Source: Clavulina sp. PMI_390 (lineage: Eukaryota > Basidiomycota > Agaricomycetes > Cantharellales > Hydnaceae). From it: a DNA stretch of 59,084 nucleotides. The stretch lies in assembly GCA_015039315.1 (NCBI GenBank), contig WIDE01000029.1, positions 82,433 to 141,516 on the forward strand. Reading direction: 5' to 3'. The notes below the pieces were generated by a model, which did not search any database, was not told the DNA's origin, and saw only the letters and a list, made by a program, of their open reading frames with translations. Shown here one piece after another: positions 2,312-54,985 of this stretch. The translations under genes and the position numbers were made by a program. Numbering within the stretch: the first letter of the stretch is position 1; every line of letters begins with the position of its first letter.

Positions 2312-2849
2312 CTAGATGTTACGATCTCTTCGATGATCTGCTTCTGCTTCCGCTCCTTCTTGTGGGGCACCATAATAAGTGGTTACTCGCAAGTCAATCT
2401 GGAGAGCTGATGGTTAGCGTCAAAAAGTTGACGGGAAAGATAGATGCATACGGAATCATGTGCCTCTACACGCTCGCCGTGACGCTGGGTCGAATCATGA
2501 GCCTGCCCGGAATCTGACGCTTCTCCCTCTTCTGCTCCCGCCTCGTTGCTGTTCTGGTTTTTTTGGGCGTTTGACTATAGTTCAGCAGGAACAATGAGCG
2601 CTGAAATTTTAAGAAAGCAGCGGATACTTACAGGGCTGCGTTTAATGCCCCGTCCGCTATAGACCTCGACACGGTCATCTGAATCGATCTACAGCGGAAA
2701 AATTGAGGGAATGTAAGCGGAGACGCAGGCAGAGATCTTACCTCAAAGGCAGCGCCAAGTGCCCTCAGTTCATGTTCACTAGTGATAGGGAGGGCTACCA
2801 CGACGCTAACGAATAGAAGGAAAAAAGCAGCAAGAAGAGAGAGCCTCAT
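2312..2849 (-). CDS. Small secreted peptide precursor, paralog 1 (diverged)
   Basis: Hand-spliced model of about 124 aa with four exons: 2849..2742, 2688..2632, 2574..2452 and 2398..2312. Residues 1-20 form a signal peptide (MRLSLLAAFF start, leucine/valine core, ending VVALP). Exon 1 is exactly 36 codons with a phase-0 intron, as in the paralogs at 4310 and 41831. Exon 2 has the family pattern of an acidic DD pair, a tyrosine segment (VYSG) and a dibasic KR followed by SP. Exon 3 is acidic and Gln/Asn-rich (GAEEGE) and matches exon 3 of the 4310 paralog. Exon 4 contains TTYYG. The last intron has two possible acceptors (2407 or 2399); I prefer 2399 because it continues the reading frame to a tyrosine-pair exon. 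The first KR and the Trp-Tyr-Tyr core seen in the paralogs are missing, so processing may differ or be lost. A TATA-like element lies at 2911-2918. Product and function are unknown. Confidence 0.5.
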
Positions 2850-3896: not shown

Positions 3897-4310
3897 TCAA
3901 GTCGGTCTACAACGTCGCTGATGAGCCATAGAACGTTCATGGTAGAATTCGAGGCGTACAGGACCACGCTCGCATTCCTCATCTCTTGCAAGCACCGATA
4001 CCTCTTCATCTTCCGCCCCCAACTCCTTGTTATAAGTCGTTTGGGGGTTCGTCTACAAAGCTGTTGAGGAAACCGAAAGGTCGTCATAAAAAGCATACAC
4101 ATACAAATGCACGTTTCTCCGTGCGCTCATAGTACCACTCATTGAGCTGCAATAGAGACGATAAGTATTAACAATGGTGACGATAGTAAGTGAGAATCTC
4201 GCCTGTGTTTCCGCGTTGCGCTTCACCAATGTATAACGAACAGCAATGGGAAGAGCTGACGCGACATTGGCGAACAGAAGGACAGAGGCACTAAGAAAAG
4301 AGGGCTTCAT
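3897..4310 (-). CDS. Small secreted Kex2-type peptide precursor, paralog 2
   Basis: Hand-spliced model of about 101 aa: exons 4310..4203 (36 codons), 4146..4105 (14 codons) and 4052..3897. A signal peptide covers residues 1-20 (MKPSFLSASV start, SALP end). A dibasic KR follows near residue 30. Exon 2 reads NEWYYERTEKR, a Trp-Tyr-Tyr segment closed by a second KR, so one short core is bracketed by two Kex2-type sites. Exon 3 begins TNPQ and is strongly acidic, matching exon 3 of the 2849 paralog; this supports acceptor 4053. The first intron would start with GC instead of GT (GCGAGA), at exactly the codon where both paralogs have GT. Either it is a GC-AG intron or the splice site is broken and the gene is dead. 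If unspliced, the frame instead runs to a stop near 4053. It is related to the precursor beside the UstYa-like genes at 42-45 kb. Confidence 0.5.
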
Positions 4311-16735: not shown

Positions 16736-17560
16736 TTAATTGACGGTTGAAGCGATGGGTTTGGGGGTCGTTGGCCCATCGCTCGCTGGCGCATCCCAAG
16801 AACTGCACCTGAAGCACGTACAACGCTTCGCCCTGCCCATCACGAGCCAGTGGAGATGGGGGATGTACTCTCTGGTGGACGTGAACTCTTTGACATGAGC
16901 AGAGCCACAGATGTAGGTGTCGTAGTGGGCTCGGACAGGTTCATCCGAGTCACTGTTGTCCCCTCGCCAGGATTGGAAGACGGCGTAACCATCTGGGAGG
17001 TGCGTTACACGGTAGCCATCGACCCCGTTGACAGTCGTGGCGACGTGGGACGATCGAGAGGCACCATCCTCCCGTTTCAGTTGGAGTGATTCTCCTCGAA
17101 GTTCCGCGCGTCTGTAGGCTTCCAATCCGTTGCCAAGAGTTTCAAAGGCTCGACGCATTGTGACATCGCGTCGCTGCCTCTCCATTGTTGTGCATTTCTT
17201 GTTTGCCCTGGCATCGTCAATTTGAAATATCCCCTTCTTTCCGGGAATTCCTGCATGAGATGCCAAAGCCTTTGGCCAGTGCGCCATAGACGCGTCAGAT
17301 ATTCCATCGGGTAAGTCTATAACTCGTGTACTACTGATGCGGGGGACATTTGACACCAGAGATACACGTTTTGTCGCGTCATACGCGTCCTGAGTTATCT
17401 TGTTACGCCATTTGACCTTTCGACGCTTCTCGACTGGACGGATGGCCTTTGAGCCTGGCGGCCATCGATGTGGTTTGGGTGGTGTATTCTTCGGGTACGC
17501 AAGCCGTAACACTGGGTGATCACCATTGACAGGAGTGCAACGATTCTCTTTACCCGCCAT
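16736..17560 (-). CDS. Clr2-like (cryptic loci regulator 2 N-terminal domain) protein, copy 1
   Basis: Single-exon, 274 aa. The start at 17560 (MAGKENR) is fixed by the paralog at 20541; the frame is open further upstream, but the extension is low-complexity and not conserved. The N-terminal 100 residues are basic (KPHRWPPGS, KWRNKITQDAYDA). Then come the family block IDDARANKKCT, the helix ETLGNGLEAYRRAELRGESL, LPDGYAVFQ, YDTYICGSAHVKEF, YIPHLHWL, and a final CTCFRC cysteine pair. The last part, a tyrosine-rich sheet, PHLxWL and CxCxxC, is the pattern I associate with the N-terminal domain of Clr2, a silencing factor of the fission-yeast SHREC complex. No C-terminal Clr2 half is present. A TATA box lies at 17794-17804 (minus). 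Chromatin function is inferred only. Confidence 0.65.
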   Translation of the reverse strand: MAGKENRCTPVNGDHPVLRLAYPKNTPPKPHRWPPGSKAIRPVEKRRKVKWRNKITQDAYDATKRVSLVSNVPRISSTRVIDLPDGISDASMAHWPKALASHAGIPGKKGIFQIDDARANKKCTTMERQRRDVTMRRAFETLGNGLEAYRRAELRGESLQLKREDGASRSSHVATTVNGVDGYRVTHLPDGYAVFQSWRGDNSDSDEPVRAHYDTYICGSAHVKEFTSTREYIPHLHWLVMGRAKRCTCFRCSSWDAPASDGPTTPKPIASTVN

Positions 17561-19737
17561 CAGCAAACGTAGGCAACGGCCGGGATCAGAATGGTAGAGG
17601 AGTGAGAAAGGGTTCGGAGGTAGGGATGAAAAGGGAGAGGAACAGAGAGAGGTGGGAGAAGAGGTACGGAAAGAGAGCTTCGGAGAGAGGCAGGGAGAGG
17701 GGTGGAGGAAGAGGAAGAGGAGGAGAAAGTTTGTGGAAGCCCAATGTAACGAGTACAAAGTGCGACGGGGGTTTATCCCAAGATACATGGGGCCCTTATA
17801 TACCTTGCAGCCATTGAACCACGTGTTAGAGGTCGGTGACTCGCTTGCCCATCAATCTTCTATTAAATTCAGCACGAGGGAGGAGCATTTGGGATCGGGA
17901 TCGGGAGTATTCATTAGCGGCTGTGCACGAACCTGGGTCAATCAAGGTTGAAGTCTCCCTGGTTGTGTACAATGCTCCATCGGGCGGCAAGGCGATCTGT
18001 GAGAAATAATATGCGCGTGACAACCTCGCTGTCGCTGAGGTGGAGTTCGGCTGCCCACAACTGTCAGATGGAGGATAAAAGTGTTTCGTGTTTAGGACTT
18101 CAGGGAGGCCTAGAAGCAACGCAGCTCCCGAAAAAGCATTGGCTCCGCCAACTGATACTATTGGAGACGAATGTCAAACAATCGCAGATCCATATAATTT
18201 GGTGCTTTGGGCGGTGCCTTTTCAGCCGTCCTGCACGAGCAGCGCTCGCGTCACCCAGAAGTAAGACTTCTCTGTGGTGCATACTGGTTTTTCGAGTTTA
18301 CCACAATAACGCTATTTCCTTGAGATCAGCAAATGTTCTAGTTACCCCTTTACTCCTCTACGTGACGGGAACAGCAGGTCAGGAGGAGTCGCTGTATCTA
18401 CCAGGGGTGCTTCCATCGGCGCTGCACTTTCAACCCTGACGGATGCTCCGCACGATCGCTCGATCTCTTTTCACTGTATTGGAGCACAATAAATTCATGA
18501 TTTGTATCTGCAGTGATTTTTTTTCGACACCTCGGCTCATCGCTAGGTGACGGGTGTGTGGTTGTGGAGTTCAAGCACAATCGAAAAGAATTCGATGAAT
18601 TCGCAAGAATTGAGTGGGGCTCTCCCCATACGGCCCGCCCCAACGACGACATAGGAGTCTCTACGGAAAATCCTCTAACAATCACGGCTCCACGGTCTCG
18701 TAATTTCGACGTCTCCATCAGCTGTCAATGCCCAAATGGTTGTTAGATCGCAATAAGATTTACAAATAAAAATGCTTCGTTATCTGATGTTCTGCGCTCC
18801 AGGCTTCGCCTTTGGATATTGCCGGGCCGAATAGGGAGACTAAAACTGTGCGATCGTGGATCGCCATTACCCGATATATGCTACATTATACAAGGTTCGA
18901 AAAATGATGCCTGGCGGCTGACAAACAAAGCGAAGGTCGCTCTGTGACTCGCTCAGATCAGCTGTCACACACTCCTTCTCCATCTCCGGGATGTTCAACA
19001 TGCCGTGTCGATGCATCCTCCGTACGATTAGACAAATATTTTTATTCAACTTGATCACCATGGCTAATTTCAATAATTTCTTACGAAAGAGCCAGCGATC
19101 TCCCATACATGAGCTCAAGTGCAAGGGGTGAGGGCTGAACAACTCGCTGGATGCCCTCATATTCGATTTAATACATAATTGATATTCGATTGTGTCTCAC
19201 AGGTAGAATAGTTTTACAATTTTTTTTCTGACACAAGGGTGAGTACTGTATGACATTGCTAGTGTCGTACAGAGTAGTCCCATTGAGGGGACAAGAGTCC
19301 ATGTTACAGATTGTAACAAAAGTACGAGAGTAGTCGTAGGCTAGTACGGGCTAAAGGGAATCTCAAGGAATATGGAGAACGCAGGGGAGGGGACAGAGTC
19401 AATAAGTAGGGTACGGCCACGGGAGGAAAAGGGACAAAACATAACACGGGGGATTGCGCACGAGGGAGCGGCCAGCTTTATCGATTGGGTATGGCGAGAT
19501 GGATGGGACATCATTATAGGACAGAGATCGGGAATTAGCTTGAGTTGCACAAAAGCATATGGCGTCAACTCACAATAGATAGGTATGTGGGGGGAACAGT
19601 AGAGATATATACCACCGTCATCATCATGTGTAACGTGAGGCTACGTGGTAGCGCACGCTCGCGGGGGCTGCAGGGGGGACGTCAGCTCGAGTCGCTGAGG
19701 TTGATGGGGGTGCACTTAGCTTGATAGCTGTGTCTGT
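17561..19737. other. Spacer between Clr2-like copies 1 and 2
   Basis: Includes a TATA box for copy 1 (TATATAAGG, minus, near 17794-17804), a purine-rich strand at 17580-17750, the second copy of the duplicated flank (18911-19085) and the 3' region of copy 2. Small open frames within it look like chance frames. No other gene is supported. Confidence 0.5.
18911..19085. repeat. Duplicated 3' flank, copy 2
   Basis: Diverged direct repeat of 16120-16280, lying downstream of Clr2-like copy 2. Spacing between the two flanks is about 2.8 kb, close to the spacing of the two genes (about 3.0 kb), which marks one tandem segmental duplication. Confidence 0.65.
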
Positions 19738-20541
19738 TCATTTGGATGTAGTTGGTCTGCCCTTGGTGTAGTGGTGACTGCACCAAAAACACGTGCAGGG
19801 CTTCGCCTTCCGTGTATAGAGCCAGTAGAGGTGCGGGATGAACTCCTTGGTGGACCTGAACTCTTTGACGTGGGCGGAGCCGCAGATGTAGGTATCGTGG
19901 CGGACTCGGAGAAGCTCGTCAACACTGTCGCTTCCCCAGGTTTGGAAGATTGCGTATCCATCTGGGAGATGCTCTATACGGAAGCCATCGACCCCATTGA
20001 TAGCTGTAGACACGTGAGAAGTCCGAGGAGCGCCATCCTCCCATTTGATTTCGAGTGGCTCTCCTCGAAGTTCTGCACGTGTATATGCTTCGATTCCATT
20101 ACCGAGGGCCTCGAGTACTTGGGATACTTTATTGTTGCGCCTCTTTCTCTCCGTAATGGAACAGTTATTGTTTGACTTGACATCATCAATGCGGAAAATT
20201 CCCTTCCTTCCAGGAATATCAGCGTGACGTGCCAAAGCCTTTGGCCAATGTATGGACGAGGCATCAGAGATTCCACTAGGTAATTTTACAATTCGCGTAC
20301 TGCGGGTATGGCGGCCATTTGGCACCAGACGGTTACGTTTGGCCGCATTGTAGGCGTCCTGAGTTATTTTATTACGGAATCTAACATTCGGACGCTTCTG
20401 TGGTGTCTGGACGGGCTGTGAACCGGGGGGCCAATGGTGTGGCTTGCGTGGCAGCTCTGGTGGCGTCACCTCCGTGCTCATCAGCCGGAACACGGGGTGT
20501 TTGAAGTCAACTAGAGCGCCACGGTTCTCCTTGCCCGCCAT
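19738..20541 (-). CDS. Clr2-like protein, copy 2
   Basis: Single-exon, 267 aa, starting MAGKENRG. It shares the whole length with copy 1: KPHHWPPGS, NKITQDAYNAAKR, IDDVKSNNNCS, LEALGNGIEAYTRAELRGE, HLPDGYAIFQTW, YDTYICGSAHVKEF, FIPHLYWL and the terminal CTCFWC. The copies differ by many point changes but few indels, so both frames have been kept open since duplication, which suggests that both are in use. A TATA box lies at 20666-20676 (minus). A GTGAGT site soon after the stop aligns with a GTAAGT after copy 1 and could start a 3'-UTR intron. Function is inferred as for copy 1. Confidence 0.65.
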   Translation of the reverse strand: MAGKENRGALVDFKHPVFRLMSTEVTPPELPRKPHHWPPGSQPVQTPQKRPNVRFRNKITQDAYNAAKRNRLVPNGRHTRSTRIVKLPSGISDASSIHWPKALARHADIPGRKGIFRIDDVKSNNNCSITERKRRNNKVSQVLEALGNGIEAYTRAELRGEPLEIKWEDGAPRTSHVSTAINGVDGFRIEHLPDGYAIFQTWGSDSVDELLRVRHDTYICGSAHVKEFRSTKEFIPHLYWLYTRKAKPCTCFWCSHHYTKGRPTTSK

Positions 20542-21878
20542 AGCTAAATAGGGCTAACTTGAGGGATTACAAGGGGAGGGGTTGGTATGAAGTTCAAATC
20601 GTCCGATGTAAACAAGTACAAAGGATGATGATGGGGGGGAGTGTAAAGTGCAGTGACCCCAGCCGCTATATATACCCCAGCGTGTAATTACGTAAGCATT
20701 TCGCATACCCAATATCTTGACCGGCTTATCAAGCCCATCACGTAATCAAGGACAGGATTGGCCATCAAAGATGGATGATGATGGTAGTTGGGGGGGACAG
20801 GCCAAAAAAAATAGCACAACAATGTCGACTGGTGGCTGTGCATCCCCCAGGCACGCTTCGGATACGGCGGCGGATGCGGATGCGCCGTGGAGCAGCATCG
20901 GAGTACGACGGAATCAATCCGCGGTTTGACCGCGGCTGCCCCGTACACCATCTGCAAATAGGTTTCTGTGATATACAGACTGGGTGGAAACAATCTAAGC
21001 AGTGCGAGACTTTACTGATATCGTAAGGACCAACAGGCTGGCTTTGTGGGATCCAACCTCCAATTGGAACGAGAACTTGGGACTTCGAGAACACAATGTG
21101 TGGGAAGATCCTTGATTCTCTGCCGTGGCTGTGCGTACGGGAACACTGGAATCGACTTCCCAAGGCGACGGTGGTTGTTGTGGGACACACTCCGACCGAC
21201 TCTTCTTGTCGTTCGCGACACGCTTCTACTAGACGGCCTCTGCGGTTGGCAAATGGCAAATTTCAAAAAGGGGCAGTACGGAGGATGCAAAGAATGCTCA
21301 GTATATACACGAAAGCCTCCCCCGAGAAAAAAGAGTTTATAATGAGCTGCAACCATTCTAGCTTCTGCACTGAACTGGTAACGCAAGTAGTGATTTGCCA
21401 TGCCCAACACTAGCGCTTCCAAAGCGTGCTTCCCATGTTCTTATATATTCGGCACGCCCCATTAGTGAGAAATAAGACTGCGCAATAGTAAGTGCTTTCG
21501 GATTCAAGCAACGCTATTCACTCGAAGTTTCCAGGAATGGACAAAGAAGGATAGGTAATCAATCAATCAATCAGGCATCCTGAGAGGATAGTGTACACAG
21601 GTCTAGAATGCACGTCTAGACGACAATAAATTACACAGCTCAATACGAATAGTACAAAAATAACTGAAACGGACAGGGAAAGGGGGCGGTTGGGGGAGGG
21701 AGGTAGAGGAGGGGGGAGGGTTGAGGTTTGGGAGAGCATTAGGAATGAATGCAGCCGCCACAGATCGACGAAGAGGGGTAGTGTAAGACGGCGAGGGTGG
21801 CTGTGATGAATGTGGATGGGCTCAAAAGGTCCTGTGGAAGAGCATATTGAGGCATCGACTTACACGAACGAACAAAGA
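20542..21878. other. Spacer between Clr2-like copies 2 and 3
   Basis: No coding exon is recognised. It holds the promoter of copy 2, several overlapping short chance frames around 20765-21420 and a short tandem AATC repeat near 21560. A GTAAGTCGATGCC site just after copy 3 resembles the post-stop donors of copies 1 and 2. Confidence 0.45.
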
Positions 21879-22820
21879 TTAATGCCCCGATCCCATGTTA
21901 CATGCAACAGGAAGCTGTTCCGATTTCACCGAAGGAGGCTTAAGGGATAAAATGAGCTTTGAGGCACCAACTGCCAGAGTTTCCCGTTGAGCACTCACGA
22001 GGTTGACGACTGTGTCCATGGGTCTGGACGTGTTTGACCTGATCTTCGTTCCTCCACCTCCGCATTGGAAGCACACGCAAGGTTCGACCATCCCAGTGGA
22101 GAGCCAGTGGAGATGGGGGACGAACTCCCTGGCCGACGTAAACTCCTTGACATGCGCAGAACCGCAGATGTATGTGCTGTAGCGAAGGAGCTCGCCATTC
22201 TTGCCTTCTCGCCGAGCTTGAAAGACGGCATAGCCATCCGGTAGTCGCGCCAAACGATAGCCAGAGGCACCGTTAATGGGTGTGGCCACACGAGACGACC
22301 GAGAGGTCCCATCCTTCCGCTTCAGCTGAAGGGATTCCCCTCGAAGTTCCGCTCTCTTGTATGCCATCAATCCTTTGCCAAGGGTCTTGAACAACCTCAA
22401 CATAGTGTCTCTTCGCCTTTTCCTCTCTGTCATGGTGCATTTTTTATTCGCGTCGTCATCATCGATGCGAAACATTCCCGGCTTCCCAGGCATTCCGACA
22501 TCGGAATCCAAGCTCTTTGGCCAATATGCTGGAGATGCATCAGTTATTCCCTTCGGTAACTCTACAATTCGTGCGCGGCTGGTGCGACGTCCCTCAAGCA
22601 CCGGTTGTGCACGCCTTGCAATATTATATGCTTTTTGAGTTACTTTACTATGGAATCGTCTGGGTGATGCAGCTTTAAGCGCTGGGCGCGAAGGTCTCTG
22701 GACCAGCGGCCATGCATGTGGCTTACGAGGGGGATTCTCGGATATCATCTTTGGGTACAGAATACGAAATACGGGATGATTTACATCAACAAAAACATCA
22801 CGATCATTCATATTCAACAT
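21879..22820 (-). CDS. Clr2-like protein, copy 3
   Basis: Open frame of 313 aa starting MLNMNDRD. It aligns with copies 1 and 2 from the N-terminal DVNHPVFRI through KPHAWP, KVTQKAYNIARR, IDDDDANKKCT, FKTLGKGLMAYKRAELRGE, LPDGYAVFQ, YSTYICGSAHVKEF, FVPHLHWL and CVCFQC. It is the most diverged member of the array. After the point where copy 1 stops (…TVN), this frame continues about 30 residues through a good GTGAGTGC donor (near 21997), so the true C-terminus may be spliced instead. A TATA-like element lies near 22945-22954 (minus). Its upstream neighbour is the assembly gap, so further copies may be hidden. Confidence 0.62.
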   Translation of the reverse strand: MLNMNDRDVFVDVNHPVFRILYPKMISENPPRKPHAWPLVQRPSRPALKAASPRRFHSKVTQKAYNIARRAQPVLEGRRTSRARIVELPKGITDASPAYWPKSLDSDVGMPGKPGMFRIDDDDANKKCTMTERKRRRDTMLRLFKTLGKGLMAYKRAELRGESLQLKRKDGTSRSSRVATPINGASGYRLARLPDGYAVFQARREGKNGELLRYSTYICGSAHVKEFTSAREFVPHLHWLSTGMVEPCVCFQCGGGGTKIRSNTSRPMDTVVNLVSAQRETLAVGASKLILSLKPPSVKSEQLPVACNMGSGH

Positions 22821-23241
22821 CGTAAATAATTTCTACAGGGAAAGGGGGGTGGGAGGTCAATGGTTGGGCGGGGAGTTCGACAAAAATAGGGGGGAGATTA
22901 CTGGGGTAAAAGTGTGAGGAAACGTTTCTCGACCCCCCACGTGGCCTTTATATCTTTATGACGGGGTCATATGATTCCCGGCATCTTGCGAAGGAAGAAA
23001 AAATGACTCGACATCGGGGCCGATAGTCCATTTTGAGCAAGCTGGGATAATGTGAGCTTTGAACACAGGATTAGGGGCCGGCATTCAGACCTTTTCAATA
23101 GCGATTATTTTTTGCAGATAATTACAGCGTGCCGTGTGCCAGATGCCAGATACCTATGATTAATATTTGGCTTCCTCGACGCGTTCTTGTCCCATCGGAG
23201 AACGCGACCTCTTATCAGTCACATTCAACTCAATTTTCTTC
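22821..23241. other. Promoter side of Clr2-like copy 3
   Basis: Contains the TATA-like element of copy 3 and no gene. It runs into the gap at 23242. Confidence 0.45.
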
Positions 23242-24146
23242 NNNNNNNNNNNNNNNNNNNNNNNNNNNNNNNNNNNNNNNNNNNNNNNNNNNNNNNNNNN
23301 NNNNNNNNNNNNNNNNNNNNNNNNNNNNNNNNNNNNNNNNNNNNNNNNNNNNNNNNNNNNNNNNNNNNNNNNNNNNNNNNNNNNNNNNNNNNNNNNNNNN
23401 NNNNNNNNNNNNNNNNNNNNNNNNNNNNNNNNNNNNNNNNNNNNNNNNNNNNNNNNNNNNNNNNNNNNNNNNNNNNNNNNNNNNNNNNNNNNNNNNNNNN
23501 NNNNNNNNNNNNNNNNNNNNNNNNNNNNNNNNNNNNNNNNNNNNNNNNNNNNNNNNNNNNNNNNNNNNNNNNNNNNNNNNNNNNNNNNNNNNNNNNNNNN
23601 NNNNNNNNNNNNNNNNNNNNNNNNNNNNNNNNNNNNNNNNNNNNNNNNNNNNNNNNNNNNNNNNNNNNNNNNNNNNNNNNNNNNNNNNNNNNNNNNNNNN
23701 NNNNNNNNNNNNNNNNNNNNNNNNNNNNNNNNNNNNNNNNNNNNNNNNNNNNNNNNNNNNNNNNNNNNNNNNNNNNNNNNNNNNNNNNNNNNNNNNNNNN
23801 NNNNNNNNNNNNNNNNNNNNNNNNNNNNNNNNNNNNNNNNNNNNNNNNNNNNNNNNNNNNNNNNNNNNNNNNNNNNNNNNNNNNNNNNNNNNNNNNNNNN
23901 NNNNNNNNNNNNNNNNNNNNNNNNNNNNNNNNNNNNNNNNNNNNNNNNNNNNNNNNNNNNNNNNNNNNNNNNNNNNNNNNNNNNNNNNNNNNNNNNNNNN
24001 NNNNNNNNNNNNNNNNNNNNNNNNNNNNNNNNNNNNNNNNNNNNNNNNNNNNNNNNNNNNNNNNNNNNNNNNNNNNNNNNNNNNNNNNNNNNNNNNNNNN
24101 NNNNNNNNNNNNNNNNNNNNNNNNNNNNNNNNNNNNNNNNNNNNNN
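23242..24146. other. Assembly gap (905 N)
   Basis: Unresolved bases. The gap borders the tandem Clr2-like array, the kind of place where near-identical repeats stop an assembler. Any open frame crossing it is an artefact. Confidence 0.99.
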
Positions 24147-36646: not shown

Positions 36647-38731
36647 TCATGGCCGCGCCAAAGCCACAGCTCCCACAACAGCCAATACTGCCAACAATAG
36701 AAGCAAAATCCACATAAGAGTCGAGGCTATACCCGTATGAATCCAGACCAAAAACATGCAAATACCGCAGCAAAGGAAAAAGAAATAGGAGTCGTTAGTT
36801 TCTTAGCTTTCTCTCTCGGCACGGACTGCGGGCGGGCGAGATGACAGGTGCTGACGTACATGAACTGAACAGCTCCGGAACCAAAATAACGCGCAGCGAG
36901 GCGTCGGCGCTCCCGGAAACGAGCACGGTCGCCGATGGGTTGAATTGCAAGAGCGTCGGCGGGAAATCGTGGGACTTCAGAATTGCCAGCAACGGCTGTT
37001 CTCGTCGAGGCCAGGCAACCATAGAGAAAACGCAGAAATACCCATGAGTGAATGCGATACATGCCGCCGGTCAGATCATCATAGCCTGAATTGAGAAAAG
37101 GTCCACTTACCGCAAAGGTGCGGGCATCGAGGATCCCAACAGAACTGTCTGATGCACCATAGGCGAGCAGCTTTCCATTCTCACTGGAGTCAGCAAATTC
37201 GAGAGTCACCAAGTTAGCACGGAAGCCTAGGAAACTGATCAGGAAGCTCAAGGTGGCCGCACCTTGTGGCAAAGACCGTTACCGCCCGCTTGCCCAAGAA
37301 GCGGACCTTTGTCGGCAGCCACTTCTCCGCTGCCTCCTTCTCCTCTTTCTCGTCCTTCTGCTGGCGCTCCCACCGCACTAGGAAGGATTTGCGATCCGCC
37401 TTTTTACTGCCCCGCCCGCTCTGTGGTGCGCTATTCACGACTGTATATAGCACCCCATCCATACCTGCTGCAGTATTAAACCGCCCCGCTCTGAATGTCC
37501 TCAGTCCACCGTCCTCTGAAGCACTGAGGACATCAAGACCTGGCACACTGAGCGTCGTGCTCGGTTCCAATGAAGCAAGTGCAAGCTTATGAGTAACCTC
37601 GGCGTCAGGTTCAGAGGCCTCATCTGGTACGGCAACCATGTTCAGAGGGAGAGGAATGAAGTAAAGGGTCGTGCTGGTGGTAACGAGGAGCTAAAACCAA
37701 GGAGAAGAACATATATATGTGACTCTTGCGTCAACGTTGAAGTTGCACTTAGAGGAACTCACTGTGCCCTTAGAGAAATCAAGCCCGTATAGTGTCCCTG
37801 ACGGGATTTTGAAAGCGTTCGAAACGAACGCAAGCGAAGGGTAAGAGAGAACAACAACCTATCAACAACCAGAGGTGAAGGCACAAGAAAGATTAAGGAT
37901 CGCGAGAGTTAGGTCACTGAAAGCACCTTCTGTTTGTCAATACACTAACCTCGTTGTTACTTGTTCCGACTGCGACGAGTTTCGAGTCCCTTGAGAAAGC
38001 AGTCACATTCTGTCAGCAGCATGAGGATACCAGCTCCATCAGCAAAGAGTTTGCAAGGGAAGGTATTCAGGAGAACCAACCTGGTAGGCCTCCTTCAGGT
38101 CTGGTGATAAGGTCTGCTTCTTCTTTGTCACGGAGAGTCTTGGAGAGAGATGGTAAGTCAGAGAGACATTAGCTAAACAGTAGCGGGGTTGTAAGGATAG
38201 AAGGGGGGACGCACTTATCGTCTGCCACCTGATATAGCCTGCAATGTTCATTTATACCCTCTGCAACGGACTGCTCGCTACTGTTTACACCGCATATCAG
38301 GGAGCTGTCCTGTATTTTCGTGGACACAAGTGGATCAACGACTTGTCCAAGTATCTCGATATGGGGAGGAACGCCTTACCTCGCGATTGACCACTAGCGT
38401 CGTGGGAGAATCCTCCCCCAGTTCCATTTCGGCCTCAGTGACAAGTGTTATATTCTGAGTTGCTTTGTCGACATCATATAACCTCTGTTGCCCCACATCA
38501 TAGCAGCAACAGCAAACCACACATGCAACAGGAGCAGTTTACAAATTCCAGAGCACGAGTAAGTATTATGGCTTCCATAGAGCCTATCTTGTACAAACTC
38601 ACGAGTTTATTCTTGATCCCAGAGCGACCTGTCCCACCTCCACCTCCGACAACAAGTCGCGTGTCAGAAACGAATCCCGCACAGTATACAGGGAACTGAG
38701 GTATAGAATGAAGCGTGTGTTGCGTTCTCAT
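36647..38731 (-). CDS. SEC12: Sec12-like guanine nucleotide exchange factor for Sar1
   Basis: About 410 aa over ten exons, beginning MRTQHTLHSIPQFPVYCAG at 38731. The glycine-rich loop VGGGGGTGRSGIKNKL near residue 30, ending in Asn, is the K-loop signature of Sec12/PREB. Propeller repeats follow (TAFSRDSKLVAVGTSNNE, GKLLAYGASDSSVGILDA, LLQFNPSATVLVSGSADASL). The last exon (near 36720) encodes a single membrane helix, LMWILLLLLAVLAVVGAV, followed by only a few residues. Sec12 activates Sar1 on the ER to start COPII coats; the helix anchors it with the propeller facing the cytosol. Compared with budding-yeast Sec12, the large lumenal tail is missing. Nine introns, all short. It is divergent from the Mum2-like gene and tandem with the kinase gene. 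Confidence 0.85.
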
Positions 38732-39087
38732 CCTGATTTTGGGACGATAGAGGCTGACTTCTACAGAGGTTTGCCGTGGTAGTAGCTGGATTCACAGAAA
38801 GTCGAGCTGGCAAACGCGGCAAGGGGGGGTAGATGTGGCGACGATGTGACGCTCAGAAGATGGTGTGGTGTATTCTAAAGGATAATATCTTGGACTTGTG
38901 GACTTGGCAAGCCCTTGATAGCCAGGATTTAATTTCTCGCCAAGGGAGAGAACCGGGGGGCGACAGCGTCACTCGTGTGTCCAAGTGTGTGACCGTGACA
39001 ATTTAACCACACTTCCCACGCTTGTGTGCTTCCGCTGGCTTCACGCCTTACCCCGCGTCTTTTGAGGTCTACGTTGGAACCGTCGGC
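38732..39087. promoter_or_regulatory. Shared divergent promoter, Sec12 and Mum2-like genes
   Basis: A 356-bp interval between two outward-facing start codons with no other gene. No clear TATA box is seen. Confidence 0.4.
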
Positions 39088-41057
39088 ATGGACGAACCAG
39101 AGCCACAATCGCTGCCGACGACGCGCGAGCTTGAGCTCGAGCGCTTAATAACTGACCGCGATTCCCAAATCGTCGCCCTCACTGTGTGTTGCTTCGCTTC
39201 GACTGCTCTCTGGCTGTTTGTGGCATACAAGCATCAAAGAACCTCACCTTTCATCTTGGGCATTTTATCATGAACAGAATGATATCAAGGCTCTCCGCGC
39301 TTATCTGCCGTCTCAGCTGCCATCCACAACCACTCCAAAAGATACTACTGCTAAACTCCAAATCCCGCCCGCGCTCGCCCGCTTCCTCGCCCCTCTCGCC
39401 CTCCAACACCATCAAAACCAAGTCCAGCGACGCGCTTTACCCGCATCGATTCCTTCCGACAGGGAGGATTCCGCGTTTGCTTCAACAAGTGTTACACAGG
39501 CGCTGAAGCAACGCATCAACCTCCTCCAGGCGGAGAATGACGAGCTCGGTCAGATGCTTGGATCTCCCGGCGTGGCACGCGTACACGAAGAGAATAAGCT
39601 CATGCGCCGGAACTTGCTAAATATGGAAGAAGCTTTGAAAGGTGCGCGCTACGATTTCGTGATAACCAGTGTAGTAACGAAGCCCACTCACTCTCCTGGT
39701 TGTGTTTCTTCTCTAGATTCCCACACGATAATATCGAGACTATCGTATGTATCATGAATCTTGTCCTAATGCCCCATGATATGCTCACAGCTCACTTCTT
39801 TGGTCGTCAAAGTTCTGATTTGGACAAAGCGTACCAAATCATCTCTTCCAGACTCCCCGCAGAACCAGTCTCCCCTGACGCCACATCCCCGGTTCACGGT
39901 CGTAGATCTTCATATTCCCAATCGCGTCGCCGGTCACGGTCTCGCTCACGATCCAACTCCATTTCCCGCTCTCCTTCTCGTTCTCCCATTGCTTCTTCAT
40001 CACGGACCCTCTCTCCCATTCAACCATCTTCTTCGCATACTCAACAGTCTTCTGGACGTAGTATCACCACAGTAAATACCAACAGCAGTCAGAGCCAGAG
40101 CCAATCGTACTCTGCGGGTGTATCAAGCAAAACGAAGAATGGAAACGGATTTACACAACCGCCCGCGGGCTCTTCAGCGACGTCAAGAGTCAGTGCTTCC
40201 ATCACTGACTGAACCGCGGCGAACGTCCGCTTACTGACCACGATGCTAACTATCTGTCTACTATGCGCGTGTCAATCTTACTTTATCCTTTCCAGGCGCA
40301 TCCCTCTCTCCCAGCAAAGCCATCCTTGGGAAAACTTTCTCTACCCACGAATCCTGCAATACCAAGCCCGAATTCAGCATCAACCCCGACTTCCATATCC
40401 AACGGACACAGCGGAGGTCCGGGTGCGAATCCTAACTCTCAAACCACCAGCTCTCGTAAGAGGGATCGCGAAACGTACGAAGACGACGAAGATGCCGATG
40501 GGGACAACGATCGCGCCTATTCTTCGGAACGAGCCCACGCTCACGCGTCTCATATGCACAGTGCGCGCGTCTCTGGCGCTGCTGCTAGTGGCGGCGGAGG
40601 GGGTGGTGGTCGAAGTGGGACGCCTGCGGCTAGTTCATCAGCTTCCGTATCTTCCGCCTCTAAGCGAGATAGGGATCGAGGAGAGTCGAGAGGCAGCCAC
40701 GACCATCGCGAGCGCGAGCGAGATAGAGAGAGGGAGAGGGAGAGGGATCGTGACAGGGATCGCACCCGTGACCGTGATCGCGACCAACATCGAGATCGCG
40801 ACAGAGACAGAGATAGGAACCGACCGCGCGACAGAGAACGCCCTCGGCAGGAGGAGAGGGAGCGGGATCATGGTCGTGAAAGAGGATCAGCTTCAGCAGG
40901 AAGTGCAGGTGGAGGAGGGGGTGGAGGTCTGCAGATTCATGGCCAGGCTGCAAAAAACGTGGCAACTCCCACAGTCCCAACGGGACCTCGTAATGCGCCA
41001 CGTTCTGCTGGTAGTGGTGGTGGGGGCACAAGAAGCCTCGTCGATCGCATAAGATGA
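39088..41057 (+). CDS. WTAP/Mum2-like coiled-coil protein with Arg-Asp-rich tail
   Basis: About 540 aa from five exons, start MDEPEPQ at 39088. A coiled coil covers the first 200 residues: RELELERLITDRDSQIVAL, QRINLLQAENDELGQML, EENKLMRRNLLNMEEAL, and SHTIISRLSSDLDKAYQII across two introns. This layout resembles WTAP/Mum2/FIP37, the scaffold of the m6A mRNA methyltransferase complex. A Ser/Arg-rich stretch follows (near 39900-40000). The last exon carries a long Arg-Asp/Arg-Glu dipeptide tract (about 40670-40860), Gly runs and a terminal SLVDRIR. RS and RD/RE tracts are common in nuclear RNA-processing proteins. The family call rests on the coiled-coil pattern only, and a different splicing-related coiled-coil protein is possible. 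The acceptor at 39810 (GTCAAAG) was chosen over an earlier AG to keep frame. Confidence 0.5.
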
Positions 41058-41490: not shown

Positions 41491-41831
41491 TCATAGGGCC
41501 TCCTCATTCGGCTTGAGTTCTCGGCGATAATATCCAATATTCGCATCAATTTCCTCCTGTAAAGGTGGAGCCTGAGCAGTCATAGCTTATGAAGGGAAAA
41601 AAAAAAAACTTATACCTCAGGACTACGCTTCTCAGCGCGTTCGCGGTAGTATCTAATCCAGTCGTCCGCCTACAGAAGCAACGATCAGCCAAAGTAGGCA
41701 GTCAAGACAGGCGGAGACCTGACCTCAGATTCGTCACCGCGCTTCACCACTCCATCGTCGACAAAGGTGGGGAGAGCTGACACGACGCTAGCGAACAGAA
41801 GTACAACACCGCTAATCAGAGAGAGCTTCAT
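41491..41831 (-). CDS. Candidate dikaritin-type RiPP precursor (signal peptide, Kex2 sites, YY repeats)
   Basis: An 80-aa precursor from three exons: 41831..41724 (36 codons), 41669..41616 (18 codons) and 41571..41491. Both introns are canonical and in phase 0. Residues 1-20 are a signal peptide ending in SALP. A first Lys-Arg site lies at residues 30-31 and a second (EKR) inside exon 2. Two related units follow the leader: WIRYYRE in exon 2 and NIGYYRRE in exon 3, each with a Tyr pair after an Ile and an acidic stretch. A signal peptide, Kex2-type KR sites and short repeated Tyr-containing cores are the features of ustiloxin-, asperipin- and phomopsin-type precursors. The gene lies about 0.9 kb from two UstYa-like genes. 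A TATA-like element is at 41889-41897. The final product, its cyclisation and its activity are unknown. The alternative is an ordinary small secreted or pheromone-like peptide. Confidence 0.6.
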
Positions 41832-42690
41832 GACTGCAACAGGTCCGCAGGTTGAGAAGATGGGGAGCGAGTTTGAGGCGAGAAACGATATTTATACGTT
41901 GGACATCAATTTTTCCTTTCAGATCTGCCCTTGTTGCAATGTGAGAGTTTTGCCATACTGAAAGCAGCGCAGTAGGTCTCCCTGCACCAAATTCTTATCT
42001 TTGAATATAGGTCCCTTCATAACGGGGAAGTCTCTATCCAGAGCACTATATTGTATCCTGTGGGGCATACAAGGGCAGTCACATCCCGCGTGAGAATTAT
42101 ATCTAGATTGCGTGCGTGTAATCTCCACTTGCGCCCGGAGAGCGCGAAACCTGATCCAATCACATCCTTCCCTGACTGTTGTGCTGTCTTCCTTGTTCAT
42201 TGGGGTACAACATAATAGAGGCAGCAGTAGCTCCGGTCGCAGGAATAATTCAGTGGATCTGAGTTGTCGTCAGAATCGGGTGAAGAGAACCCGTAACTTG
42301 GGTAGAAGACAAGATAGGAACATGTGGAAGCACCAGCACTTGAAGTCATGTAGCCTGAGAACACGCGACCGGAGCTTTACGCAAGACTTCAGCGTAGACT
42401 AACAGGGGCTGTGTGTTCTACTCAGATACCAGTGCAATGTTCACTATGACTGCTTCTTGTCGAGATCGTGATTGTGGCCAGGGTCCAGGGAGTAAAGCCA
42501 AATAGATGGCAATAATACTGAATGTCCAACTTGATGCCTCTAAGAGTTTCCCAAATGACCCGTGCTCGATCGTCCCGGTCCCTTGGAATGATACACGGGC
42601 CGAATCATACCTCCTTTTTATGTGAGCTGATTTATCTTAACCATTTTCGTATTCGATATAGGTCCACACCTGTGTCTGCTCATTGCCACT
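41832..42690. other. Divergent spacer of the candidate RiPP locus
   Basis: Promoter region shared by the precursor (minus) and the first UstYa-like gene (plus). The precursor-side TATA-like element is at 41889-41897. No additional precursor or tailoring gene is recognised here. Confidence 0.5.
41889..41897 (-). promoter_or_regulatory. TATA-like element, RiPP precursor
   Basis: GTATAAATA on the minus strand, about 58 bases before the start codon, at the spacing seen in the two paralogs at 2.8 and 4.3 kb. Confidence 0.45.
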
Positions 42691-43748
42691 ATGCCGTCGA
42701 GCTATCAGCCTCTTGAAACGGAGGCTCAGCCTTATCACTCCAGAACTGATGTGCTAGGAGCTCACAATAATGCTGCTGATCTCGACGATAACGTCAGGAC
42801 CTATCCTCCTTCGCGCCTGGGCGGTTGCAGCTCAGGCTCCAAACAACAGCTTTGGATAAGACGCGCCACTGCCGTTTCCTTGGCTGCCAACTTTCTTGCA
42901 CTTCTATATATCTATTACTTATGGCATAGTCGAGGCTCTTATACCATCTGGCGAGGTTCCCAGCCACTCTACAGTATGCACTTTTAAGATGCAGCCCATC
43001 TTCGACGCACCCCTACTGAGCATATCATCCTGTCATAGCCCCTATCGAAGACCCGCCACATAAGCTCATAGTGTCGACTGGTCTACGTGGCAAAACCCCC
43101 TATCACGGGCCTCCATCCCCCGACGTTGATATGCTCTGGGAGAATTTGTATGCACCTTGTTCGTCCTCTTCTCTTTCCCTCGCGTGTGGATACGCTCAAG
43201 TTTGAAACGTACAGACCTACTAGCCGGGATCACTGCTGAGGAGTCTTCCCAGCTCGCGAACGCTACCGCACTTTCCCCAGGCCTTGAGTTGTATGAAACG
43301 CAGATCGAAGTCTTCCACTACCTTCACTGCCTCGTGAGCATACGATAGCCTTCGTAACCTTGCCTTGTCACTCAATTTTTCTATGTTGCAGAATTTCATT
43401 CGTCAACTGGCGTGGCCCACACACTACGGTGGAACAGCAGCCAGCCGTTATGCCATTAGTCGCGGTCAAGTCTTCAGCCATGCTGATCACTGTATTAATG
43501 CCATTCGCGAGGCTCTGATGTGTAACTCACCGATCGCCGCCTTGCCATGGCAGTTTAACCCCGCAAAAAACCATTCCGAAATTCGGTTTGATGTTCTTCA
43601 CACGTGCTCAGATTTTTCCGCTGTCCAAGAAGCTGCAAAGAAGCGTCAAATTCCTGGCAAGATCTCGACTGACCCACTCAACGCGACCCTCCCACCAGAA
43701 TTTACCCCAACACATGCACAATTGGTGGCGGAAGGATGGGAAGACTAG
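42691..43748 (+). CDS. UstYa-like (DUF3328) oxidase 1
   Basis: 292 aa from four exons: 42691..42973, 43039..43158, 43215..43333 and 43392..43748. A short cytosolic N-terminus is followed by one membrane helix (about residues 55-75, LAANFLALLYIYYLW). Then come the DUF3328 landmarks: YHGPPSPDVDMLWENLY, EVFHYLHCL with HxxHC, and HADHCINAIREALMC with the second HxDHC. UstYa/UstYb proteins need both motifs, are membrane bound, and carry out oxidative cyclisation of RiPP cores (ustiloxin, phomopsin, asperipin). The GTTCGT donor at 43159 was selected because the nearer GT leads to a stop. It is tandem with a second UstYa-like gene 275 bp downstream and close to the precursor gene. The exact reaction is inferred. 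Confidence 0.85.
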
Positions 43749-44023
43749 GCCAATGAATCAAGGCATATTGTAACATTAATACAGTGAATAGAAAAGTGTT
43801 CCTCTTATCTTTCCGCCCCAGGATGCGGAAGAGTTTTTTTTCCATTAGATCGAATCAATAGTGACAGGGGGTGGGAGTCTCCACAATCTAGTGGATCAAT
43901 CTGGGTCGTGTGCCCATGAATTCCGTCTCCGCTGAGTTGGCGGGCGCAGTAGGGATCTTCTATGCATGGAACATATCTTGTCTAGTATTCGATGGGAACC
44001 CTCATCACCATCACCCATCCCAA
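43749..44023. other. Short spacer between the UstYa-like genes
   Basis: 275 bp with the terminator of oxidase 1 and the promoter of oxidase 2. An in-frame upstream ATG exists at 43910, but the N-terminus it adds is not like the family. Confidence 0.45.
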
Positions 44024-45162
44024 ATGTTTTCATCACTGCGCAACGCGACTAAATCCACTAGCCCACTCGACGAACCTCTCCTAGATGGCAGCGAGGACAA
44101 GCCCTTGGACCTATTCTCGCAAACTCAAGCTCACTGCAATGTCCAACTGGACCCACTTGAGCCTTCAAAGCCGTCACCACGGCCGCTGCTCCACCTGCTC
44201 GCTTCTCTAGCTATAAACACGGTTCTGTTCGTCATTGTCATCTATGCAGCAGTTCAGCGCTCGATGATGGTGAGGTGGGAGGGAGCACCCCAGGTATATA
44301 GTCAGTACGAAAGTTATTCGTTCCAAGAATATCCGCTGAGTTAGGATGGAATCATCCTCGATAGGCCCAGTATTAGACAGCCTGACCCACAACCACGTCG
44401 TATTTACACCGTTACTGACGCGGACCAAATGGCATGGGCCCCCAAATGATGCGGTCGATAAGGAGTGGGAGGCTCTCTATGATAGTAAGCGATTGCCGCA
44501 CAGGTCCTTCGATAGTGAATGACTGATATATTCTCCAGTCGGTATCTCGGCGATTTCTGGCGCCCAAGCTGCTTTGCTACCCAATAAGACAACGAATCTC
44601 GCGGGGTTGGATGATAAATACATCATCTCTTTGGTAAGATTCGTTCTCATGTTCGTAAGCCCGTGGAGTAAGTGGCTCACCTTGAACACGCGCAGGACGT
44701 GTTCCACCAACTCCATTGCTTGGTGAGTTACCCGCTATGAAAGGGGCCCGGAATGATATGTTGACTAGTGATGCCAGAATACCCTTCGGAAGTTCCAGCA
44801 TCCTAAACGGTATCCTCGAGTCGTCGAGCAGCGATATCGAGATGAGCCTGGGTAAGTCCTCATTGTGGAGTGGATTTGGATCCCCTTACTCAACAGCAAT
44901 TCTTTTCAGATACGGAAAAATCGACCACATCAACCACTGCATCCAAGCAATTCGTGAAGCTCTAATGTGCTATGCGGATCGGACTTTGGATCCATTCCTG
45001 GAGCCGAATGATCGCGATCACAGCCAAGTCTCTTTTGAGAGTTATCATACATGCCGAGATTTTGGGGCAATCCAGAAGTGGGCTCAAGAGCATCAGTCGC
45101 CGTTCAAGTTTAGCGATGTGGTTATGGCGCATGGAGCACTCGTGCCTGCAAACCTTGGTTAG
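44024..45162 (+). CDS. UstYa-like (DUF3328) oxidase 2
   Basis: 289 aa from six exons: 44024..44300, 44341..44484, 44539..44633, 44696..44722, 44778..44851 and 44910..45162. Frame is continuous throughout. A membrane helix (LLASLAINTVLFVIVIYAAV) follows an acidic N-terminus. Family landmarks are KWHGPPNDAVDKEWEALYD, PNKTTNL, DVFHQLHCL and HINHCIQAIREALMC. The fourth exon is only 27 nt and encodes exactly the HxxHC motif. In the second motif the usual Asp is Asn (HINHC against HADHC in oxidase 1), which may change activity. Paired UstYa/UstYb enzymes act together in known dikaritin clusters, so the two tandem genes may cooperate. The first intron (40 nt) is the least certain border. Confidence 0.83.
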
Positions 45163-53246: not shown

Positions 53247-54304
53247 TTTAGGGGCTACCAAAGTGGTAATTTAGATAACTGAAGAAATGAGTAGAGTAAT
53301 GACCATAGATCATCCTATACCAAATACATTGGGTTATCCTTACCCTAGATGGACAATCTACCATTACAACTGATTCAGTTGAGCATGGTTCATAATGGCA
53401 GCAACATTACCTGTGTCTCAAAAGGTAGCATCTGGCCTGAATAGGGGCTCCAGTGGAGTGCAGATTAAAATTACCCAGAGATTCTTCTCTTGTTGCCTAA
53501 AGCATTCACCCAGAGAATGACAAAAGGGTTCTCAATTCAGTTTACTGAATAGGAACACAGTTCAAGATGTTTCCAGGTAGGTGATCAAGCCACCCACATC
53601 ATGGTAACAGCCAAAATCCCTCAATTACATACCAGATCAATCAATGCAGTCCCTTCTGAACCCCCCAAATTTGTAGATATGAGATCACTGGTGCAAGCCA
53701 GCAAGGCTCAGAGTACCTTGCCCTTGCAGCTTTTTGCCTGTAGAAATCCAGGCTGTCCTGGCATTTCTCAGCTCAGTGTGCTTGAGACTTTGTAGCTACA
53801 GCTTCAGGGCCTCTAGCTTGCTGCCCTTCCTATGTAGCCATGCATATAAAATGAGGTCTGGTCCTGAGTCAGCTGATCATCAACTAGGTTGTATTATTAC
53901 CCAGAAATTGCATGCATTCAGTTGTTCCCTTGGGGCCCAGCTTCTGGGCAGGACAAGGAATATAGCCAAAAAAAATTAATTTGACCTCCAGTATAAAAAT
54001 GGGCCAGGGGGAGAAAATCCTCTACTTCTTACCACCTTCCCCCCAACACCCCTCCCTTGTACACACTCTATAACCACCATTCCACCTAGATACCATGACC
54101 CACAATAAAAATCATATTCTCAAAATGAAGAAGCCCAGTTACACAACACAGTTCTTTGGCCTGGACCACCCATCCCTTCCCAGTGGTAGCCACTGCACCC
54201 CTAAGCCATTCAACTGGCCACTCCTACCAGCCACTCAAACATCCACAGCCTCCTCTTCTCCCATTGCAAACAATGGTGTTGAAAAGGAAAATAAATCCAA
54301 CCCC
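53225..54304. other. CpG-free block of 1,080 bp
   Basis: Reading every line from 53225 to 54304, and across line ends, I find no CG dinucleotide, although C and G are both common and TG and CA are plentiful. The last CpG before it is in GGCGGG at 53223, and the next is at 54305. Flanking genes on both sides are CpG-rich. The block covers the spacer, the promoter and the first about 210 coding bases of Clr2-like copy 4. This is the footprint expected from long-term CpG methylation and deamination. No other gene is visible within 53247-54094. Confidence 0.9.
53992..53998 (+). promoter_or_regulatory. TATA box of Clr2-like copy 4
   Basis: TATAAAA about 100 bases upstream of the ATG at 54095, followed by a C-rich leader. 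Copies 1-3 have TATA-type elements at a greater distance (about 125-240 bases) upstream. Confidence 0.5.
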
Positions 54305-54985
54305 CGGATGCCACCAGCCATGAGGCAAAAGATGGGCCACACAACTGCCAAACATACACAGAGTGTTCCCCCAGCTGCCCGTGACCTAAACCGCAACACA
54401 AGCCATAGGGGAGTGGTTGAGGTTCCGCAGAGGCCGGAGTACACTGATGCGTGCCCTACCAACTGGCCGCACACAAATCCCGGGAGGTTCAGGATTGATG
54501 ATCCCCAGGAGAATGCAGCATGCACTCAGGCAGAGAGGAACAGGAGGGAGAAATGTATGAGGACCATGATGAGGACCCTGGGAAAGGGGCTTGTCGGGGC
54601 ACAGGAGGCGGCACAGCGAAGTCAGCCGTTGAGGCATCCTCGGCGGGAGGGGAAGAAAAGGCAGTCTCATACGTCACTTGTGCTGACCGATATGGACCGG
54701 TATCAACTCAGGCGGTTGCCCGAGGGTTATGCCGTTTATCAGAGCTGTCGGCAGATCAATGGCGGTGTCAAAGCCTCCGAACACTCCAAGGTGTATGACT
54801 CATATATTTGTGGGTCATCTACCGTAAGGGAGTTCAGGTCAACGAAGGAGTTTATTCCACATCTATACTGGCTAAGTCTTGGGTGTCCAAGGGATACTCC
54901 ATGCGAGTGCTACGGGTGTGGACACCCAACGTCACCGCGACGAAACACGTCTCCGACAACAACTCGTGAAAGCAGCCGCAAATAA
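54095..54985 (+). CDS. Clr2-like protein, dispersed copy 4
   Basis: Single-exon, 296 aa, on the opposite strand and about 31 kb from the array. It keeps the family blocks: RFRIDDPQENAACTQAERNRR, MMRTLGKGLVGAQEAAQRS, LRRLPEGYAVYQSC, YDSYICGSSTVREFRSTKEF, FIPHLYWLSLG and a cysteine end CECYGC. The N-terminal basic region is diverged, with only the DHP...W P spacing shared. The start could be 54095 or the in-frame ATG at 54125. The 5' end lies inside the CpG-free block, while the 3' part regains CpG. The frame is intact despite that, so the protein is probably still under selection. Confidence 0.62.
   Translation: MTHNKNHILKMKKPSYTTQFFGLDHPSLPSGSHCTPKPFNWPLLPATQTSTASSSPIANNGVEKENKSNPRMPPAMRQKMGHTTAKHTQSVPPAARDLNRNTSHRGVVEVPQRPEYTDACPTNWPHTNPGRFRIDDPQENAACTQAERNRREKCMRTMMRTLGKGLVGAQEAAQRSQPLRHPRREGKKRQSHTSLVLTDMDRYQLRRLPEGYAVYQSCRQINGGVKASEHSKVYDSYICGSSTVREFRSTKEFIPHLYWLSLGCPRDTPCECYGCGHPTSPRRNTSPTTTRESSRK

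Follow-up and report, generated by a model that had tools for sequence, protein, structure and literature searches.

The window analysed here, a 59,084-nucleotide stretch of the Clavulina sp. PMI_390 genome (contig WIDE01000029.1, positions 82,433 to 141,516), contains at positions 41491 to 45162 a short Kex2-type precursor gene and a pair of genes for UstYa-family oxidases. The question is whether these three genes form a biosynthetic unit for a ribosomally synthesized and post-translationally modified peptide (RiPP). An initial annotation of the letters had proposed a dikaritin-type RiPP locus, and this reading is supported by PF11807 matches, by both HxxHC motifs, by the Kex2-type precursor and by a paralogous cluster on another contig, C237. 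Judged from these sequences, the locus is probably a minimal UstYa-type (dikaritin-like) RiPP cluster, in which a ribosomal peptide cut by Kex2 would be oxidised by the UstYa pair. All comparisons were made within one genome of 39.4 Mb in 301 contigs, in which the window lies on contig C198.

The precursor and the oxidase pair

The locus consists of the following features.

41491..41571, minus strand: third precursor exon, 26 codons plus stop, encoding the second YY unit (DANIGYYRR..)
41616..41669, minus strand: second precursor exon, 18 codons, encoding the core ADDWIRYYR.. and the second KR site
41724..41831, minus strand: first precursor exon, 36 codons, encoding the signal peptide (..VVSALP) and the first KR site
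41832..42690, no strand: divergent spacer of 859 bases between the start codons of the precursor and oxidase A, from the coordinates
42691..43748, plus strand: UstYa-family oxidase A, 292 amino acids, PF11807, HxxHC, four exons (42691-42973, 43039-43158, 43215-43333, 43392-43748 including the stop)
44024..45162, plus strand: UstYa-family oxidase B, 281 amino acids, PF11807, HxxHC, six exons (44024-44300, 44365-44484, 44539-44633, 44696-44722, 44778-44851, 44910-45162 including the stop)

Translated exon by exon, the precursor reads MKLSLISGVVLLFASVVSALPTFVDDGVVKRGDESE / ADDWIRYYRERAEKRSPE / APPLQEEIDANIGYYRRELKPNEEAL, 80 amino acids in all, with two GT-AG introns of 54 and 44 nucleotides (nt). 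It carries two KR sites (VVKR, AEKR), an extra RR (YYRR) and two YY units, and its signal peptide was recognised by eye from the sequence. The initial annotation had described just such a spliced precursor, with exons of 36, 18 and 26 codons, a signal peptide, two KR sites and two YY units, and every part of this description was verified. Its statement that the precursor stands beside the oxidases also held, but not that they follow it: the precursor lies on the minus strand and diverges from the plus-strand oxidase pair. The spacer between them is presumed to be a shared promoter region; a bacterial-type promoter scan, which is unsuited to a fungus, gave nothing in it. For the predicted Kex2/Kex1 fragments GDESEADDWIRYYRERAE and SPEAPPLQEEIDANIGYYRRELKPNEEAL, the computed monoisotopic masses (M) are 2258.9828 and 3340.6575, or 2256.9672 and 3338.6418 after the loss of 2 H; if the RR were also cut, the predicted fragment SPEAPPLQEEIDANIGYY would have an M of 2004.9316 (2002.9160 minus 2 H). 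A basidiomycete a-type mating pheromone was rejected as the product, as the precursor has no C-terminal CAAX and has instead a signal peptide with Kex2 sites (for pheromone features, see PMC9769878).

Oxidase A matches PF11807 with 107.4 bits (E 1.3e-30) and oxidase B with 149 bits (E 2.4e-43), far above the curated cut-off of 25. The initial annotation had named the lack of such a match as one ground for refuting its reading of the locus, and the match was found for both of its tandem DUF3328 genes. The two His-Cys motifs that it had read in each protein are likewise present, as HxxHC at residues 169 and 204 of A and at 168 and 204 of B, and membership of the UstYa family is judged by these two motifs together with a Pfam score above 25 bits. 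Thirteen UstYa genes of the genome were modelled from PF11807 matches and grouped as six clusters; C2_84k, because an N run covers its start, entered neither the tree nor the motif counts, the model C2_87k is shortened at its end by a run of N, and C237_B starts without Met. Both motifs occur in all 12 kept models, and two further Cys and the Trp of a W..LY stretch are invariant in the eight of them that were aligned (alignment A1). Near the N terminus A and B each have a single hydrophobic stretch, which is borderline in A (1.61). The donor of one oxidase A intron, GTTCGT, is weak; the intron is supported because exons 2 and 3 of the C237 counterpart, C237_A, match those of A in length (120, 119 nt). 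A search of the PDB sequences with a UstYa profile from eight models gave no match up to E 1.

UstYa clusters across the genome

The PF11807 profile search of the genome, whose counts are lower bounds, gave at least 18 matches at exon level, spread over the four contigs C198 (with the window), C237, C2 and C60. Scanning and sequence reading placed a divergent Kex2-type precursor beside the oxidases in all six modelled clusters (C60 38588; C2 50893, 59768 and 91252; C237 36855; and the window), which is our own reading of a single genome. The layout of the window is more than chance, since each of the six clusters shows this divergent arrangement; two of the C2 clusters are near-copies, which leaves closer to five independent cases. 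The start codons of precursor and oxidase are 860 bases apart in the window, 1155 in C237 and 1185 in C60, and about 1.1-1.4 kb apart in the three C2 clusters, as read off the coordinates.

The other clusters have precursors of several kinds. The C60 precursor at 38588-39030 (L016 8588-9033), beside a UstYa pair, contains four NGSYYGVAKR or DGSYYGVAKR units with every repeat on a single exon, and the C2 precursor at 50893 (minus strand), also beside a UstYa pair, contains many DGSYYGTVKR units. As dikaritin-like candidates, these two multi-repeat precursors are more classic than the window locus. The near-copy clusters at about 59-64 kb and 84-91 kb of C2 (L012, L015) have DTEFTAYGGEKR precursors (59768, 91252) and inverted orientation, and the second of them includes a third UstYa gene cut by a run of N.

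The scan for signal peptides and Kex2 motifs was lenient and covered 149 kb (50 kb of C2, 20 kb of C60, 20 kb of C237 and the window). By eye, four scanned places have at least four distinct repeat units, all of them beside UstYa genes. More than a dozen matches, none of them with relatives, were dismissed as false on inspection by eye, among them 20085 plus, 30270 minus, 39776 plus and 48835 minus in the window; 53980, 78850, 83453 and 90538 on C2; and 30209, 32612, 35438, 35671, 36281, 39992, 40214 and 46829 on C237.

A family of mini-exon precursors

Three precursors stand in a row on C237 (36855, 34993, 33088), with units such as VNKRAEEI / NPDIIIYYRDNKSSEGAENKRAEEV / NPNLILYYRTDGEDAMGTEKRDEEI / NPDLILYWR.. 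and with each mini-exon contributing one core of the form NP[DN]xxxYYR. A fourth, at 31364, where the unit is a degenerate NPNAILYDR, stands outside the intron count below. An orphan precursor on C263 (L026 from 1501) has the cores NPDITIYYR and SPDIVIYYR, and there is no PF11807 match on that contig; here, too, every core has a short exon to itself. Two more genes, related and precursor-like but absent from the list of the initial annotation, lie in the window about 37 kb from the oxidases.

3897..4310, minus strand: related precursor-like gene, exons by eye 4203-4310, 4105-4146, 3897-4052; LNEWYYERTEKR
2312..2849, minus strand: second precursor-like gene, exons by eye 2742-2849, 2632-2688, 2452-2574, 2312-2398

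In both genes, here named 4310 and 2849 after their starts, the first exon is exactly 36 codons long, and 19/36 and 15/36 of its residues, respectively, are identical to those of the main precursor. The 2849 gene has a KRSP and a late TTYYGAPQ; the first intron of the 4310 gene would be GC-AG. A 28-nt direct repeat, 75% identical, joins 4022-4049, the start of the third 4310 exon, to 3849-3876 beyond its stop, where the copy may be a decayed core exon. All exon readings were picked by eye; an all-phase script gave one unique solution for the 41831, three C237 and C263 proteins, while the 4310 and 2849 models had a frame check only and an alternative acceptor in 4310 leads to another third exon. 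Across the seven modelled genes (41831, 4310 and 2849 in the window; 36855, 34993 and 33088 on C237; C263), all 20 introns are in phase 0, and 19 are GT-AG with the one GC-AG in 4310.

The YYR in exon 2 of the window precursor occupies residues 7-9, the same place as in NPDIIIYYR. When its mature part was shuffled, none of 3000 shuffles scored as high against C263 or against C237_33088, 13/3000 did against C237_34993 and 14/3000 against C237_36855, compared with 119/3000 and 108/3000 for the unrelated Kex2 precursors C60 and C2 59768 used as controls. These comparisons suggest that the window precursor is likely akin to the mini-exon family of C237 and C263.

Precursors per UstYa pair number four in C237 (one degenerate) and three in the window (two of them 37 kb away). 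We tentatively raise the possibility of a modular, dispersed peptide library, with cores on mini-exons and one UstYa pair serving several precursors, distant ones included. The cores are symmetric phase 0-0 mini-exons, and therefore the gain or loss of a whole core keeps the frame. Under such an arrangement, exon duplication, loss or alternative splicing would add or drop whole cores, and the number and choice of cores would be set partly at the RNA level and not by a fixed repeat array. In the literature searched, of which coverage was incomplete, no description was found of a precursor family in which each core has its own phase-0 exon and one oxidase pair is matched by several precursors.

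The paralogous cluster and the evolution of the oxidases

In a midpoint-rooted tree of the 12 models, in which the deeper joins are flagged for possible long-branch effects, window oxidase A (W_A) pairs with C237_A (support 100/99) and window oxidase B (W_B) with C237_B (100/100). Aligned identity within these pairs is 70% for A and 68% for B. Non-synonymous divergence (dN) between window and C237 is 0.225 for A and 0.23 for B, and synonymous divergence (dS) falls outside the NG86 range. At four-fold sites 46/63 and 34/59 differ, and codon positions 1, 2 and 3 differ at 70, 45 and 174 of 276 codons in A and at 69, 48 and 153 of 273 in B. Silent sites are near saturation between the window and C237 oxidases. 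The duplication is old, with the C237 cluster as an old paralogue, and selection has on the whole kept both oxidases, although pairwise values cannot tell which branch relaxed. For the B pair the branch lengths are 0.31 (W_B) and 0.16. With its clearer repeated YY cores, the C237 cluster strengthens the predicted RiPP nature of the window locus.

A proposed pathway and its alternatives

The proposed pathway has four steps. The 80-residue precursor would enter the secretory pathway by its signal peptide, and by analogy with the known pathway Golgi Kex2 would cut after KR, perhaps also after RR, with trimming by Kex1. The two UstYa enzymes, presumably membrane-anchored with their HxxHC..HxxHC domains in the lumen, would then oxidise the YY-containing cores, possibly at a two-copper centre that uses O2. 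This chemistry is modelled on CctR, the only family member known to use it. CctR is a membrane-bound, copper-dependent DUF3328 hydroxylase, each monomer of which binds two coppers at HxxHC(x)nHxxHC; it needs O2 and electrons, is proposed to have its catalytic part in an organelle lumen, and loses activity when the His and Cys of the motif are mutated (PMC12435403). The likeliest outcome would be a cross-link between side chains that involves Tyr, perhaps with an upstream Ile or Trp as its partner, followed by secretion; hydroxylation is the main alternative outcome within the same scheme. UstYa-family enzymes make the Tyr-Ile link of ustiloxins, the N-terminal Ile of epichloecyclins is joined to a later Tyr, and the asperipin link runs via an internal Tyr (PMC9233826). 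The analogy points to Tyr as the most likely cross-linking residue in the I..YY and W..YY cores.

On the lenient scan, the window precursor alone is no better than the false matches; its support comes from its relatives, exon phases and position and not from its scan score. Several observations weigh against a RiPP cluster. The shuffle controls are low (108-119/3000), and therefore part of the similarity to the C237 and C263 precursors would be general Kex2-precursor make-up. At E up to 10, the window precursor was missed by genome searches that used C237_36855, C263 and C237_34993 as queries; used as a query itself, it found its own exons and, besides them, only the 4310 gene (E 0.0575). Its cores are without the NP of the family cores and are only two, and neither tyrosinase nor peptidase was found close by. 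The branch to W_A is also longer than that to C237_A (0.41 vs 0.061).

The strongest of the other explanations is that the precursor yields linear Kex2 peptides, such as signals, surface peptides or effectors, with the oxidases acting elsewhere or changing little. The agaricomycete Kex2-repeat peptides detected so far are linear or minimally modified (PMC9769878), a further point against a cyclic product, and non-ribosomal peptides are among the substrates of DUF3328 enzymes, which hydroxylate or chlorinate them (PMC12435403, PMC12048977). However, every one of the six clusters combines a precursor with a UstYa pair, and YY or Y is conserved at fixed positions of the cores; we regard linear products as unlikely. 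Less probable again is a decaying precursor copy, with oxidases A and B now serving precursors elsewhere (C237, C263). Such decay would fit the loss of NP and the presence of two units, the GC donor and decayed-looking repeat of the 4310 gene, the longer W_A branch, and the existence of the C263 precursor on a contig without a PF11807 match, whereas an intact signal peptide, an open frame, two GT-AG introns, two KR sites and the usual divergent place speak for a working gene. A precursor model put together by chance next to two genuine oxidase genes is scarcely credible: its scan score resembles that of hits judged false (e.g., 48835 minus in the window), but the C237 precursors share its signal-peptide ending, exon phase and divergent place, and the 4310 and 2849 genes share its 36-codon first exon with the residue identities given above.

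Surroundings of the locus

To the left of the candidate RiPP locus lies a WTAP/Mum2p-like open reading frame (ORF) at 39152-39754 (plus strand; 29.9 bits, below the cut-off of 35), with serine/arginine-rich frames behind it. To the right, a gene of the eRF1/Pelota type (45.9-47.3 kb, minus strand), complete with the three eRF1 domains, is followed by NIPA and TFIID-31kDa. A glutaminyl-tRNA synthetase gene at 6.0-8.1 kb stands next to the 2849 and 4310 genes.

The initial annotation had seen no tyrosinase, methyltransferase or transporter nearby. Tyrosinase indeed has no match within the window, the nearest on the contig being at C198:176668-176982, about 35 kb beyond the right end of the window. 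Methyltransferase and peptidase families are absent among the 56 of 195 window ORFs (at least 90 amino acids) covered by the Pfam scan. The only transporter seen is a NIPA-type Mg transporter at 48.1-50.0 kb. An Rfam scan of the window gave no match.

PF16761 (Clr2_transil) scored above its cut-off in four ORFs, 16739-17851, 19741-20553, 21882-22832 (minus) and 54074-54982 (plus), a group of silencing-factor-domain paralogues within a single window. The sole run of N in the window has 905 N (23242-24146). Elsewhere in the genome, STE3 receptor matches occur at six places (C33, C68, two on C269, C296, C24) and DUF6533 has five matches; both are basidiomycete marks and fit a basidiomycete genome.

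Comparison with known systems

Characterised dikaritins listed in the excerpts of PMC9233826 and PMC12048977 come from Ascomycota only. Like the ustiloxin and phomopsin systems, the window locus combines a signal-peptide precursor, Kex2 sites, Tyr-bearing cores and two or more UstYa/DUF3328 proteins. Unlike them, it has no tyrosinase match in the window and only two cores on separate exons, whereas they have a tyrosinase, other tailoring genes and multi-repeat precursors. Under the definition quoted in PMC12048977, the class-defining enzyme of dikaritins is a DUF3328 protein, for which the window has two genes, and the signal peptide and cores between Kex2 sites are present with diverged repeats. 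By the scans described above, the locus falls outside an older five-gene definition (tyrosinase, methyltransferase, transporter or peptidase), and working clusters without some of the five genes exist, e.g., asperipin-2a (PMC12048977).

The asperipin-2a cluster is similar in having a UstYa-type enzyme without a tyrosinase, and internal Tyr cross-links (PMC9233826, PMC12048977), but it has one UstYa gene and not two, and its core differs. In the epichloecyclins (gigA), the link from an upstream Ile to a later Tyr is a geometry that the I..YY cores would allow (PMC9233826); these are ascomycete products with another core sequence, and the link in the window peptides is a predicted one. CctR has, like the window enzymes, HxxHC(x)nHxxHC, one N-terminal membrane helix and a large C-terminal domain (PMC12435403), but its substrate is a non-ribosomal peptide.

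Within Basidiomycota, UstYa-like genes are known from Pleurotus (16, of which 6 are developmentally expressed; PMC8893723), and a survey counted 103 of 1680 Kex2-repeat proteins beside DUF3328 genes, i.e., 6.1% compared with 30.1% in Ascomycota; it put forward that Basidiomycota might make hardly any use of such cyclisation (PMC7329392). The locus is not a new kind, because precursors adjoining DUF3328 genes, as in the window, had already been counted there; the view of the initial annotation that few basidiomycete loci are described can be kept only with this count in mind. The rule of the survey for a Kex2-repeat protein (KEP) is at least three tandem repeats of at least eight amino acids between Kex2 sites (PMC7329392). 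The window precursor, with two cores, works like a KEP yet is not one by this rule, and would be missed under it. Several window-type precursors have two cores spread over mini-exons, below the survey threshold; if the same held in other species, the gap between Basidiomycota and Ascomycota would partly reflect how such genes are detected, and the predicted peptides, with their computed masses, would form a directly testable set.

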